NCBI GenBank assembly: GCA_003218735.1
Contig: QHOJ01000072.1
Span: 1-12,626, forward strand
DNA length: 12,626 bases
Origin: Verrucomicrobiota bacterium
GTDB taxonomy: Bacteria; Verrucomicrobiota; Verrucomicrobiia; Chthoniobacterales; UBA10450
Direction of reading: 5' to 3'
This document shows positions 2,685 through 7,323 of the stretch, one piece after another. A program made the translations under genes and the position numbers. Positions within the stretch are counted from its first letter, which is position 1. The number at the start of each line of letters is the position of its first letter. The notes under the pieces are model-generated. The model was given only the letters and a program-made list of their open reading frames with translations. It was not told the origin of the DNA and did no database searches.

Positions 2685-2716
2685 CCTCTCCCTTAGGGAA
2701 AGGACTAAGGTGAGGG
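2685..2716 (-). repeat. Hairpin repeat, left copy, flanking the DUF559 gene
   Basis: Read on the minus strand it begins CCCTCACCTTAGTCC and ends in a hairpin, CCTTTCCC-TAA-GGGAGAGG (8 pairs, one of them G-T). It matches the copy at 3086-3117 at 27 of 32 positions in inverted orientation. It contains the TAG stop (2705-2707) and the last codons of the DUF559 gene. The sequence type is a 'CCCTCACC...CTCTCCC' palindromic repeat that I recall as common beside DUF559 genes in other bacteria. Confidence 0.8.
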
Positions 2717-3079
2717 CGTTTTAACTGTCGTCCACAAAGATTTCTCGGGATCGGCCGCATAAACAATGGCGTTCAAAACTCCATCGAGATTTGAGAGAAC
2801 TTCGCGATTGATAAATCTAAGGACCCGAATCCCTCTCTCATGTAATTCCATCTCGCGATCGAGATCAGTCGTTTGACCGAAGTGGCGGCGGTGTCCAGAG
2901 CCATCAAGTTCGACCGCAAGCTTTGCTTCCGCGCAGAAAAAGTCTACCACACGCGTTCCGAGCGGGTGCTGACGCCGGAATTTCAACCCTGCCAATCTAC
3001 GATTTCTTAGATGCGCCCAGAGTCGTTTCTCAGCCGTGGTTCCCGCCTTTCGCAAACGCCGTGCTTGTTTTACGCTCAC
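2705..3079 (-). CDS. DUF559 family endonuclease-like protein
   Basis: Small protein (124 residues) of the DUF559 family, which is related to the very-short-patch-repair/restriction-endonuclease-like PD-(D/E)xK nucleases; its biological role is not established. Family hallmarks are LRKAGTTAEKRLWAHLRNRRL (9-29), KFRRQHPLG (33-41), VVDFFC (44-49), KLAVELDGSGH (53-63) and the C-terminal RVLRFINREVLSNLDGVL (85-102). D46 and the E57/D59 pair are the likely metal ligands, with H63 also conserved. The start is GTG at 3079. The adjacent inverted repeat supplies a GAGGTGAGGG purine-rich stretch ending 6 bases before it, a plausible ribosome site. The stop and the final Pro-Ser-Pro codons lie in the other repeat copy. 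It is transcribed against its neighbours and stands alone, consistent with a self-contained repeat-bounded unit rather than an operon member. Confidence 0.9.
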   Translation of the reverse strand: MSVKQARRLRKAGTTAEKRLWAHLRNRRLAGLKFRRQHPLGTRVVDFFCAEAKLAVELDGSGHRRHFGQTTDLDREMELHERGIRVLRFINREVLSNLDGVLNAIVYAADPEKSLWTTVKTPSP

Positions 3080-3085
3080 AATTTA

Positions 3086-3117
3086 CCCTCACCTCAGTCC
3101 TCTCCCAGTGGGAGAGG
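3086..3117 (+). repeat. Hairpin repeat, right copy, flanking the DUF559 gene
   Basis: Begins CCCTCACCTCAGTCC and ends in a perfect 8-bp hairpin, CCTCTCCC-AGT-GGGAGAGG. It is the inverted partner of 2685-2716. Its complement supplies GAGGTGAGGG, six bases before the GTG start of the DUF559 gene, so the repeat doubles as the gene's ribosome-binding region. It is followed by a second small imperfect hairpin, GGAGAC-AAAA-GTCTTCTCC (3116-3134). Confidence 0.8.
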
Positions 3118-3369
3118 AGACAAAAGTCTTCTCCAAGTTAAATGTTTACGTCCGCGTTCGCGACTGACTTTCCTCGCGATTGTCAATCCAGTGCGCTGGA
3201 AGATGAAGAAGACGCTAAAATTAAAACGGCTCGCGTTCACTTTGAGCGATCGTCATTGGCCTAAAAGCCGGTCTTGATTACGCCCGTAGCAGACCTGCCA
3301 AGGTGAATCCTGTCACGCCGGTAGCAGACTTGCGAAATGCGACTCTTCGCTTACAATAGCCCTTCGCTT
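3118..3369. other. Intergenic region upstream of rpsO
   Basis: About 250 bases without a convincing gene. It should hold the rpsO promoter, but I cannot pick a clear -35/-10 pair. Visible structure is a small hairpin at its left edge and the near-duplicate 'GTAGCAGAC' elements at 3280-3299 and 3315-3334. Short open frames here have no recognisable protein signature. Confidence 0.4.
3280..3334 (+). repeat. Tandem near-duplicate 20-mers upstream of rpsO
   Basis: The 20-mers at 3280-3299 (ACGCCCGTAGCAGACCTGCC) and 3315-3334 (ACGCCGGTAGCAGACTTGCG) match at 17 of 20 positions and are offset by 35 bases. The second ends about 36 bases before the chosen rpsO start, so the pair could lie in the promoter or leader. 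They may be remnants of an interspersed repeat. Confidence 0.5.
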
Positions 3370-3633
3370 ATGGCAGAGAGCACGGAAACGTTGAGCCTCA
3401 AGGAGTTCCAGTTGCATGACGAAGATACCGGCAGCGCAGATGTGCAGGTCGCACTTCTCACCCGCCGGATCGAGCATCTGACCGAACACCTGAAGAGCAA
3501 CGCCAAAGATCATTCCTCGCGTCGCGGCCTTCTTAAGATGGTCGCGCAACGCCGGAGTTTGCTCGATTATTTGAACAGGTCGCAAGCCGATCGCTACAAA
3601 AAGCTGATCGACAAGTTGAACCTGCGTAAGTAA
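3370..3633 (+). CDS. rpsO: 30S ribosomal protein S15
   Basis: Primary binding protein of the small ribosomal subunit; it binds the central domain of 16S rRNA and helps form the subunit bridge. From Met at 3370 the protein is 87 residues, close to the usual 88-89. Signatures are [14 protein letters not shown] (18-31) and [21 protein letters not shown] (48-68), whose basic residues contact rRNA. An in-frame ATG at 3337 would add [11 protein letters not shown], which does not resemble any S15 N-terminus; I reject it although neither start has a strong Shine-Dalgarno. pnp follows 224 bases downstream, the conserved rpsO-pnp order seen in many bacteria, where the two are often partly co-transcribed. 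In E. coli S15 represses its own translation through a leader structure; nothing here can be assigned to that with confidence. Confidence 0.97.
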
Positions 3634-6096: not shown

Positions 6097-7323
6097 ATGA
6101 AGGCCGGTTTTCTGGAGAAATTAATCGAGCGGCTCGGGCGCATCGGCCCCGAAGAGGTGCAGAATTATTTTCTGCGCCTGGCGCAGGAAAAAGGTTTTCT
6201 CGAAACGGTTTTCAATGCGATTCAGGAAGGAATCATTGTAACGGATGCGAAGGGGCGCATCACATATCTCAACGGTGCGGCATGCGAATTGTTTGGTCTC
6301 GAGACGAGTGACGCCATTGGCAAACGGCTCGACGAACGCGTGCGCGGCCTCGATTGGCAATCATTGACGCAAAGTGCCGGGCCCGTCAGCCGGGATATGG
6401 AAATTTTCTATCCGGCGAATCGGTTCATCAATTTTTACATCGTGCCACTGATAATCGAATCGCGCGATTCTGTAGCCGGGGACGGTGCCCCCGGCCCGCG
6501 ATCGGCGACCGCGGCTACAGATGAGCAGGTTGGCCATGCCATGATTTTGCGCGATATCACCGAGAGTCGACGCTCAGCACAGGAGACGATCGAATCCGAG
6601 CGAATGAATGCGCTCACGCTGTTGGCGGCTGGGGTAGCGCACGAGATTGGGAACCCGCTCAATTCACTTCACATCCATTTGCAACTGATGGAGCGCAAAG
6701 TGCGCGAGCTTGATGACAATTCAAAGGCGGAGCTTCAAGACTCGATTGATGTTGCGCGATCCGAAATCGCGCGGCTTGACTCAATCGTTACACAATTCCT
6801 GCGCGCAATCCGGCCCTCCCGGCCGCAACTGCATCCGGAAAACCTAAACGTAATTGTCGAGGAGGCGGTGCGTTTCTTTGGGCCGGAAATTCGAGACCGT
6901 GACGTCGTAGTCGAACAGGAACTGCGCTCGGACCTGCCTTTGCTTCAGATCGATAGAGACCAGATGAAGCAAGCCTTCTACAACGTGATCAAGAACAGCC
7001 TCGAGGCCATGAAGCGCCGCGGCATTCTGCGCATTCACACCGACATGGACGACAAGCACGTTCTCATCAGTTTCATCGACAGTGGCGGCGGCATGTCTTC
7101 CGAGGATTTAAGCCGAGTGTTCGAGCCTTATTTCACGACGAAACCATCCGGCACCGGCCTTGGCCTGTTGATCGTGCGGCGCATCGTGCGTGAGCATGGC
7201 GGCGAGCTATCCATCGAAAGCAGCCAGGGCCAAGGTCTCACGCTAACGATTCGCCTGCCTTACATCGACAAACGGGTCCGTATGTTGGAGGCGGGGAACA
7301 CCAAAGCCGAGGGCGAATCGTAA
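6097..7323 (+). CDS. Soluble PAS-domain sensor histidine kinase (NtrB-like)
   Basis: Predicted cytoplasmic two-component kinase; it has no signal peptide or membrane helix, so it should sense an internal signal through its PAS domain. Order: N-terminal helix (1-30), PAS (about 35-120, with GIIVTDAKGRITYLNGAACELFG), a linker, a HisKA dimerisation domain with phosphorylatable H182 in AHEIGNPLNSL, and HATPase_c with the N-box around N296/N300, D328-SGGG (G1), FEPYFTTK (342-349) and GTGLGL (352-357, G2). All catalytic boxes are intact, so it should autophosphorylate. Residues ~125-142 of the PAS-HisKA linker are encoded by a palindromic interspersed repeat (6470-6520) inserted in frame. No response regulator is in the window, making it an orphan here. 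ATG 6097 has no visible Shine-Dalgarno and lies just after a repeat copy. The signal is unknown. Confidence 0.93.
   Translation: MKAGFLEKLIERLGRIGPEEVQNYFLRLAQEKGFLETVFNAIQEGIIVTDAKGRITYLNGAACELFGLETSDAIGKRLDERVRGLDWQSLTQSAGPVSRDMEIFYPANRFINFYIVPLIIESRDSVAGDGAPGPRSATAATDEQVGHAMILRDITESRRSAQETIESERMNALTLLAAGVAHEIGNPLNSLHIHLQLMERKVRELDDNSKAELQDSIDVARSEIARLDSIVTQFLRAIRPSRPQLHPENLNVIVEEAVRFFGPEIRDRDVVVEQELRSDLPLLQIDRDQMKQAFYNVIKNSLEAMKRRGILRIHTDMDDKHVLISFIDSGGGMSSEDLSRVFEPYFTTKPSGTGLGLLIVRRIVREHGGELSIESSQGQGLTLTIRLPYIDKRVRMLEAGNTKAEGES
6470..6520. repeat. Palindromic repeat inserted in frame in the kinase gene
   Basis: The 51-base segment starts CTGTAGCCG (6470-6478) and ends CGGCTACAG (6512-6520), a perfect 9-bp inverted pair. 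Inside it GCCGGGG (6475-6481) can also pair with CCCCGGC (6489-6495). Its length is exactly 17 codons, so the frame is kept, and it adds a Gly/Ala/Pro-rich stretch between PAS and HisKA. The ends match the TGTAGC...GCTACAG copies in the pnp-kinase spacer. Confidence 0.7.

Follow-up and report, generated by a model that had tools for sequence, protein, structure and literature searches.

Standalone DUF559 genes in many bacterial phyla are bracketed by small hairpin repeats, copies of which lie dispersed over genomes. The repeat itself is already known; what is new is its link to DUF559 and the clade-specificity of that link. We consider it probable that standalone DUF559 genes and dispersed hairpin-plus-head repeats constitute one two-part system across these phyla, with a mechanism, proposed below, in which we infer cleavage and mobilisation of the repeats by DUF559.

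In the window (the whole 12,626-nt stretch of DNA analysed here), a DUF559 gene encoding 124 amino acids lies on the minus strand at 2705..3079, with a GTG start at 3079 and a TAG stop at 2705-2707. Its strand is opposite to that of the open reading frames at 1871-2581 and 3337-3633, and it is enclosed by two inverted 32-nt repeats (2685-2716 and 3086-3117) that are 27/32 complementary and separated by 369 nt. This pair, first reported in a preliminary description of the DNA along with the opposed strand of the gene, was confirmed as the top inverted 32-mer pair no more than 600 bp apart in the window, where it occurs once; when the entire window was dinucleotide-shuffled 12 times, the best inverted pair reached 21-24 of 32. 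The downstream (3') repeat (2685..2716, minus strand) comprises a head (2709-2716), a linker that holds the TAG stop (2704-2708) and hairpin arms (2696-2703 and 2685-2692) with one mismatch, whereas the upstream (5') repeat (3086..3117, plus strand) comprises a head (3086-3093), a linker (3094-3098) and hairpin arms at 3099-3106 and 3110-3117. The right copy folds into a 9-bp hairpin. The earlier ascription of an 8-bp hairpin to each copy is borne out there but is slightly generous for the left copy, because its CCTCTCCC-TTA-GGGAAAGG stem contains the mismatch and a folding program favours a different pairing. On the minus strand, GGTGAGGG from the right copy ends 6 nt 5' of the GTG, and together with these 6 nt forms a probable ribosome-binding stretch (3080..3093, minus strand), a function suggested by the spacing; both this placement and that of the stop codon within the left copy agree with what had been described. 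The assembly to which the window belongs is 1.49 Mb long and 80% complete, and the strict repeat pattern matches the right copy only there. Nucleotide queries with the unit or with the DNA around it gave no match beyond the window itself, and neither approach revealed dispersed repeats or inverted doublets in this assembly. Separately, the window holds two 22-nt direct copies of ACGCCSGTAGCAGACYTGCSAA at 3280-3336, upstream of the open reading frame at 3337, that are 86% alike and 35 nt apart and perhaps belong to another small repeat family of this genome.

The window protein is a member of PF04480 (DUF559; E 4.5e-35, 120.2 bits versus a curated cut-off of 20.6), and its only other Pfam match is to one sub-threshold nuclease family. 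An AF2 model based on 59 sequences has a mean pLDDT of 76.4. When this model was compared with solved structures using Foldseek, the best match was 3hrl (NGO0050, putative endonuclease-like; E 8.5e-8) and the runner-up was the homing endonuclease I-Bth0305I (3r3p; E 2.8e-5). These were the sole solved matches below E 0.001, with AbaSI and Vsr weaker (E 0.066-0.091 for the Vsr structures 1cw0 and 1vsr). Residues E17, D46, E57, D59, H63 and D72, which are putative catalytic residues, are invariant across the 59 aligned sequences (the window plus 58 of the 80 loci introduced below, with columns 31-38 biased by the search seed). The model thus points to a VSR-like (PD-(D/E)XK-like) nuclease fold, and nuclease activity is predicted.

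Repeats bracketing DUF559 genes elsewhere were sought at 80 loci drawn from a species-level genome collection by protein similarity alone (the best 80 of 514 confirmed candidates). Among these best 80, the motif CTCACC...CTCTCC is present within 250 bp of the gene at 43/80 loci and on both sides at 25/80, and its density is 2.13 per kb near the gene versus 0.063 per kb farther out. According to record titles, the motif-bearing loci belong to Pseudomonadota/Proteobacteria, Chloroflexi, Planctomycetota, cyanobacteria, Bacteroidota, Elusimicrobia, Armatimonadetes and Gracilibacteria. The strict motif is missing at DUF559-like domains located in long open frames from the window's order (L013-L016, L018, L023 and L024) and at the standalone DUF559 locus L020. 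A motif-free test, in which the upstream 250 bp was compared with the reverse complement of the downstream 250 bp, gave a local score of at least 18 at 59/95 loci with full flanks, as compared to 0/95 when both windows were shifted 1 kb outward; the remaining 36/95 loci scored below 18 and have no strong inverted repeat, and 27/48 loci without the exact motif reached the threshold. The direct flank comparison likewise scored at least 18 at 46/95 loci, because hairpins are palindromes. Perfect 8-bp Y/R hairpins occur on 127/190 near sides versus 3/190 displaced sides (one duplicated gene, L055 = L221, is contained in the row sets of the motif-free, hairpin and start/stop-overlap analyses). Of six loci from a plasmid collection, those of Azospirillum, Deinococcus and Sphingobium score at least 25, while those of Picosynechococcus (14.5), N. 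gonorrhoeae (11) and Sinorhizobium (9) fall below 18 (L308, L310 and L312). That these patterns arise by chance or as a compositional artefact of GC-rich low-complexity DNA has a probability close to nil: the motifs are indeed C/T- and G/A-rich, but displaced windows of the same loci yielded only the 0/95 and 3/190 given above, a backward-pattern control matched 0-1 times per genome, and the 12 window shuffles never reached 27/32.

At the 25 two-sided loci among the best 80 of 514, the repeats are inverted in 19/25 cases, with 14 heads-in, 5 heads-out and 6 in the same direction. The nearest copy has its head toward the gene at 22/35 upstream and 21/33 downstream positions; a head-inward rule had been expected, and the heads face the gene in a majority of copies only. 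Similarly, a left/right difference in the linker, evident at certain loci and among the E. coli doublets, did not hold as a general trait, as the upstream and downstream length distributions overlap. In E. coli K-12 (L144, ~6750-6800), what lies 5' of ycjD is not a TM copy but an unrelated inverted repeat (CACCTCATTCTGACAAGATT...), the TM-like sequences being located 3' of the gene. The downstream repeat overlaps the stop codon or coding end in 25/30 rows, 5 of which are frames that read on for more than 200 nt, and at 9/30 upstream-motif loci GGTGAGGG is followed after 3-17 nt by a possible start codon (one duplicate row removed; starts putative). Thus, of the proposal that the repeats supply the gene with its ribosome-binding site and its stop codon, the second half extends beyond the window, whereas ribosome binding is a minority feature and was rejected as a general role. 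The overlaps would also suit repeats that are ordinary expression signals, i.e. autoregulatory hairpins, terminators or ribosome-binding sites, and a terminator role has been presumed for the one hundred such palindromes of Enterobacter 638 (PMC2869309). We regard this explanation as very unlikely, as expression signals have no need of copies by the hundred elsewhere in the genome or of the stem-head covariation described next.

A typical repeat is built from a pyrimidine arm, a loop, a purine arm, a short linker and a head, in that order, and the head is the purine arm in reverse, with A or T facing A. A purine-motif triplex demands this kind of mirroring, so that the strand could fold into one. 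Full 8/8 heads adjoin the hairpin on its gene-facing side in 55/127 cases and on its far side in 16/125. The match between stem and head has a mean of 6.756 as compared to 6.220 (sd 0.057) when heads are paired with the arms of other loci, a value that 0/2000 permutations reach. Head and stem therefore covary by the triplex rule, and triplex formation is predicted from the sequences. Variants that obey the rule include GGGGGAAGG with GGGATGGGGG and GGGAGAAGG with GGATGAGG, and many DUF559 flanks carry variants that lie outside the consensus of TM-ECO, the published triplex motif of E. coli, yet still follow it.

Several further features of the repeats were observed. In class III repeats, a small hairpin between stem and head varies among copies (e.g. 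ATGCTTCGCAT, ACGCTTCGCGT and GCTTCGC) and is self-complementary in most of those listed, as if pairing and not sequence were conserved. In two genomes (G106, L248-L267; G105, L268-L287), tandem units of ~140 bp alternate a class I repeat with a second type, which consists of CCTTCTCCC...GGGAGAAGG, an extra small hairpin and then GGATGAGGG, and which resembles the DUF559-flanking repeat at L035 and L241. Two others (G142 and G265) contain inverted doublets in which a 47-nt start-to-start spacing recurs, a REPIN-like unit whose members usually differ in their linkers (CCCTGT versus the CCCCAG/CCCCAA type).

The repeats are dispersed in genomes that carry DUF559. In 39 genomes hand-picked from those of the 80 loci, motif-bearing ones first, the exact pattern is present in 37/39 with up to 363 copies. 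Among 160 Pseudomonadota genomes, at least 5 copies occur in 20/36 with standalone DUF559 versus 8/124 without (Fisher p 6e-10), where standalone DUF559 was defined as E <=1e-10, a threshold set after the table was seen and by which 15/51 matching genomes were counted as negative. A distribution of the repeats independent of DUF559 would have spoken against the preliminary description and is not what is seen, though exceptions exist in both directions: 16/36 positive genomes fall short of 5 exact copies, 13 of these having none, and the 8/124 negatives include G254 with 151. Exact repeats were likewise seen without a PF04480 match in G146 (44), G163 (27) and G265 (22); in these genomes and G254 the gene may have been lost or fallen into an assembly gap, or another enzyme may be present. 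In the window's genus, the median is 21.5 copies in 10 DUF559-positive versus 5 in 25 negative assemblies (p 0.0014), the positives including the window's own genome and one partial match and many assemblies being incomplete. A search for the repeat with and without DUF559, as originally suggested, therefore finds it tracking the gene among relatives, while in the window's own assembly the strict pattern recovers the right copy alone. In E. coli, at least 80% of a query joining TM and ycjD is present in 3,364/5,426 complete genomes, and about two in five lack most of it. Among the matches listed, the median number of matching places is 22 with ycjD (n=37) and 6 without (n=22; p 3e-8; of 60 rows, the plasmid record H150 was excluded), a comparison that is confounded because the distribution of ycjD follows E. 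coli phylogroup (PMC12817139).

Among paralogs of one genome, repeat class follows the clade of the protein, not the genome. One genome (G138) has 10 PF04480 matches, of which the eight examined carry at least 3 repeat classes that follow protein similarity (one at L319, L321 and L322; another at L324 and L325 with a near variant at L323; a third at L318). Over 138 loci, with five duplicates removed beforehand, protein identity and repeat similarity correlate with a Mantel rho of 0.295 as compared to a 300-permutation maximum of 0.10, a statistic that is partly confounded by relatedness. For 20 paralogs in four genomes, of which 17/20 have an inverted score of at least 18 and 3/20 are without a strong inverted repeat, shuffling the flanks within genomes reached the observed rho in 0/5000 trials over all pairs and in 3/5000 over within-genome pairs. 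Sharing a genome does not itself raise repeat similarity (median 13.0 within versus 12.5 between genomes). On a FastTree phylogeny of 143 proteins, 94 class labels require 28 changes versus a shuffled mean of 44.5, with 0/200 shuffles as low, although the tree is poorly resolved, the classes were defined by our own regular expressions and relatedness inflates the test. Class III requires 2 changes over 13 rows; clustering is weak for class Ib (13/500 shuffles as low) and class V (47/500), and class IV shows none (500/500). Copies of class III number 7-47 in each of 7 genomes chosen for their class III flanks and 0 in 11 others, and for a second variant the two cognate genomes have 6 and 5 copies, two further genomes have 1 and 3, and 11 have 0.

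The preliminary description suggested that the gene and its repeats are a minimal mobile or homing-like unit, and orthologous loci were to be compared in the hope of an exact empty site. Both flanks of the window's locus lie on a single contig in 26 congeners, and 0/26 carry DUF559 there, yet the edges fail to align cleanly: 23 of the 26 have 38-238 bases between the aligned pieces, and G005, the strongest flank match, has ~99 unalignable bases versus ~760 in the window, with no clean junction. An exact empty site was therefore rejected at this locus. Neither three E. coli sites (hrpB-mrcB, lldD-trmL and alx-sstT) nor the 6 comparisons displayed of 37 placed flank pairs from three 400-kb Xanthomonas regions yielded a clean insertion with target duplication, and one of the 6 (G107 cluster 5) proved to flank a different DUF559 gene; the events seen were limited to collapses, tandem arrays and messy differences. 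The window locus, the three E. coli sites and the 6 Xanthomonas comparisons thus gave no exact empty site or target duplication, and the mobile unit is one of the weaker parts of the preliminary description. Plasmids were also dismissed as the main vehicle, as 43/72,556 plasmid records match and several of these are chromosome-sized.

An alternative is that DUF559 is a homing-type selfish gene, in which a VSR-like homing endonuclease cuts dispersed repeats and the flanking repeats serve as homology arms for copying. The second-best solved match, I-Bth0305I, is an enzyme of this kind; DUF559 is missing from the window's site in 26/26 of the congeners with both flanks on one contig; G138 has its 10 PF04480 matches; and the 13 DUF559 loci of the window's family fall into 10 contexts by shared flanks, or possibly fewer, because several flanks are cut by contig ends. 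In Xanthomonas, however, the gene keeps to one site in 16/20 genomes, with 35 to 89 query matches each, mostly repeats, and the 20 paralogs are only 31-65% identical within their genomes, which means that no recent copying has been caught. We therefore judge homing unlikely.

The four Xanthomonas genomes without the gene comprise two with two flank matches only (G097 and G109), one with 23 matches (G114) and one with 72 (G113). In G113, the gene and both heads are lost and one hairpin is left; in E. coli, doublets have collapsed in the same way in an O111 strain (hrpB-mrcB) and in JJ1886 (alx-sstT). Collapse is not proof of nuclease action, because deletion between near-identical palindromes can produce it. 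It is also compatible with a different explanation, in which the repeats are spread by another agent or by slippage or gene conversion, and DUF559 is a genome-care nuclease present alongside its substrates, performing either VSP-like mismatch repair or the removal of triplex or hairpin DNA. The persistence of repeats in some genomes without DUF559 fits this explanation, as does the Caulobacter DUF559 protein VsrA, which reportedly triggers a DNA damage response, and is required for it, once a cytosine methylase is missing (PMC12907096). This dependence favours a DNA-cutting enzyme, while the role that its authors assign to VsrA, mismatch repair (PMC12907096), counts against a repeat partner. 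A genome-care nuclease nevertheless leaves unexplained why the repeats surround the gene itself and why their pairing with it is clade-specific within a genome, and we consider it improbable.

We return to the reading that DUF559 and the repeats are partners. It is natural to suppose, and somewhat better than an even bet, that the DUF559 nuclease acts on the repeat. Two copies bracket the gene, most often inverted and with heads toward it, and the same copies, single or as gene-free inverted doublets, are scattered over the chromosome. In the mechanism we propose, each DUF559 clade would recognise its own repeat, probably on an unpaired, folded strand at the replication fork, and would nick or cut there. 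Repair of the break would then copy, tandemly amplify or collapse the repeats; RAYTs are hypothesised to act on REPs in a comparable way, whereas the enzyme here would be a hydrolytic nuclease. It counts against this mechanism that a VSR-type hydrolase is unable by itself to join DNA. The gene can keep one site genus-wide, as in Xanthomonas, or occupy several places, as in the window's genus. The full form of this proposal, in which standalone DUF559 proteins are dedicated, clade-matched enzymes of bacteria-wide triplex-forming repeats, selfish or domesticated, that host repair copies, amplifies and deletes, we put at slightly below an even chance. If true, a hydrolytic VSR-fold nuclease recognising an intrastrand triplex or a hairpin-head strand would be a new genome-resident kind, the unexplained instability of TM-ECO loci would gain its enzyme, and DUF559, which is widespread and without an agreed function, would merge with intrastrand-triplex repeats into one testable system. 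E. coli K-12 contains ycjD as well as 23 published copies of the repeat, and because about two in five genomes of the species lack most of TM-ycjD, a test there would be cheap.

Comparison with known systems places these findings as follows. The predicted fold and the invariant acidic and histidine residues are shared with the VSR-like nucleases 3hrl, I-Bth0305I and Vsr, for which we know of no partner repeat family. Vsr targets a T:G mismatch and homing endonucleases habitually interrupt genes, which is not what DUF559 loci show: whether in the window or, as ycjD, in E. coli, the gene lies between genes, with no intron, intein or conserved target gene. The repeat is closest to TM-ECO, the 'intrastrand triplex motif' described by Holder et al. 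2015, with 23 copies in K-12 and inverted doublets of type A and type B, and with CD, NMR and footprinting evidence for triplex formation by that motif (PMC4666352). Such repeats are present in many copies in enterobacteria and cyanobacteria and are tied to genome rearrangement, and TM-ECO shows large copy-number differences as well as raised instability, the mechanism of the latter being one that, to the authors, 'remains unclear'; no mobile-element association and no functional class of neighbouring genes are reported there (PMC4666352). The class I repeat is TM-ECO, and copy 9 of the published Table 1 (1,351,204-1,351,239; PMC4666352) adjoins ycjD at L144, whereas the window's linker is 5 nt as compared to the published 3-nt second loop. 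The terms 'DUF' and 'endonuclease' have 0 occurrences in the main text of PMC4666352, and among the matches listed in a search of the open literature, with subscription journals and preprints largely outside it, no paper joins DUF559 or ycjD to these repeats.

The RAYT gene is stable and mostly single-copy, a trait that DUF559 shares. REPs, like the repeats studied here, are small dispersed palindromes with an unpaired tag that flank a dedicated small enzyme gene, many of them as closely spaced units in opposite orientation (PMC3733652). CGTC-tagged REPs, which are dispersed palindromes without a known enzyme (PMC3733652), were considered as DUF559 partners and rejected, as CGTC/TGTC-ATT occurs at 0.154 per kb near DUF559 versus 0.147 far from it. 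Two differences separate the systems: DUF559 is a VSR-fold nuclease whereas RAYT is an HUH tyrosine transposase, and the DUF559 repeat carries a stem-mirroring head where the REP has a fixed tetranucleotide tag, with no GTAG enrichment near DUF559 (3.63 per kb near versus 3.85 per kb far). Because the enzyme class and the GTAG tag do not match, the system is not filed as REP/RAYT. The inverted flanking palindromes (59/95 versus 0/95) and, in other genomes, the dispersed repeats including inverted doublets are nevertheless shared with it. The analogy with REP/RAYT drawn at the outset is backed by flanking in many phyla, by dispersal with DUF559 and by clade pairing, and our best reading, by analogy, is a REP/RAYT-like partnership in which a VSR-fold nuclease would replace the HUH transposase; to our knowledge, it would be the first REP-like system run by a non-HUH enzyme.
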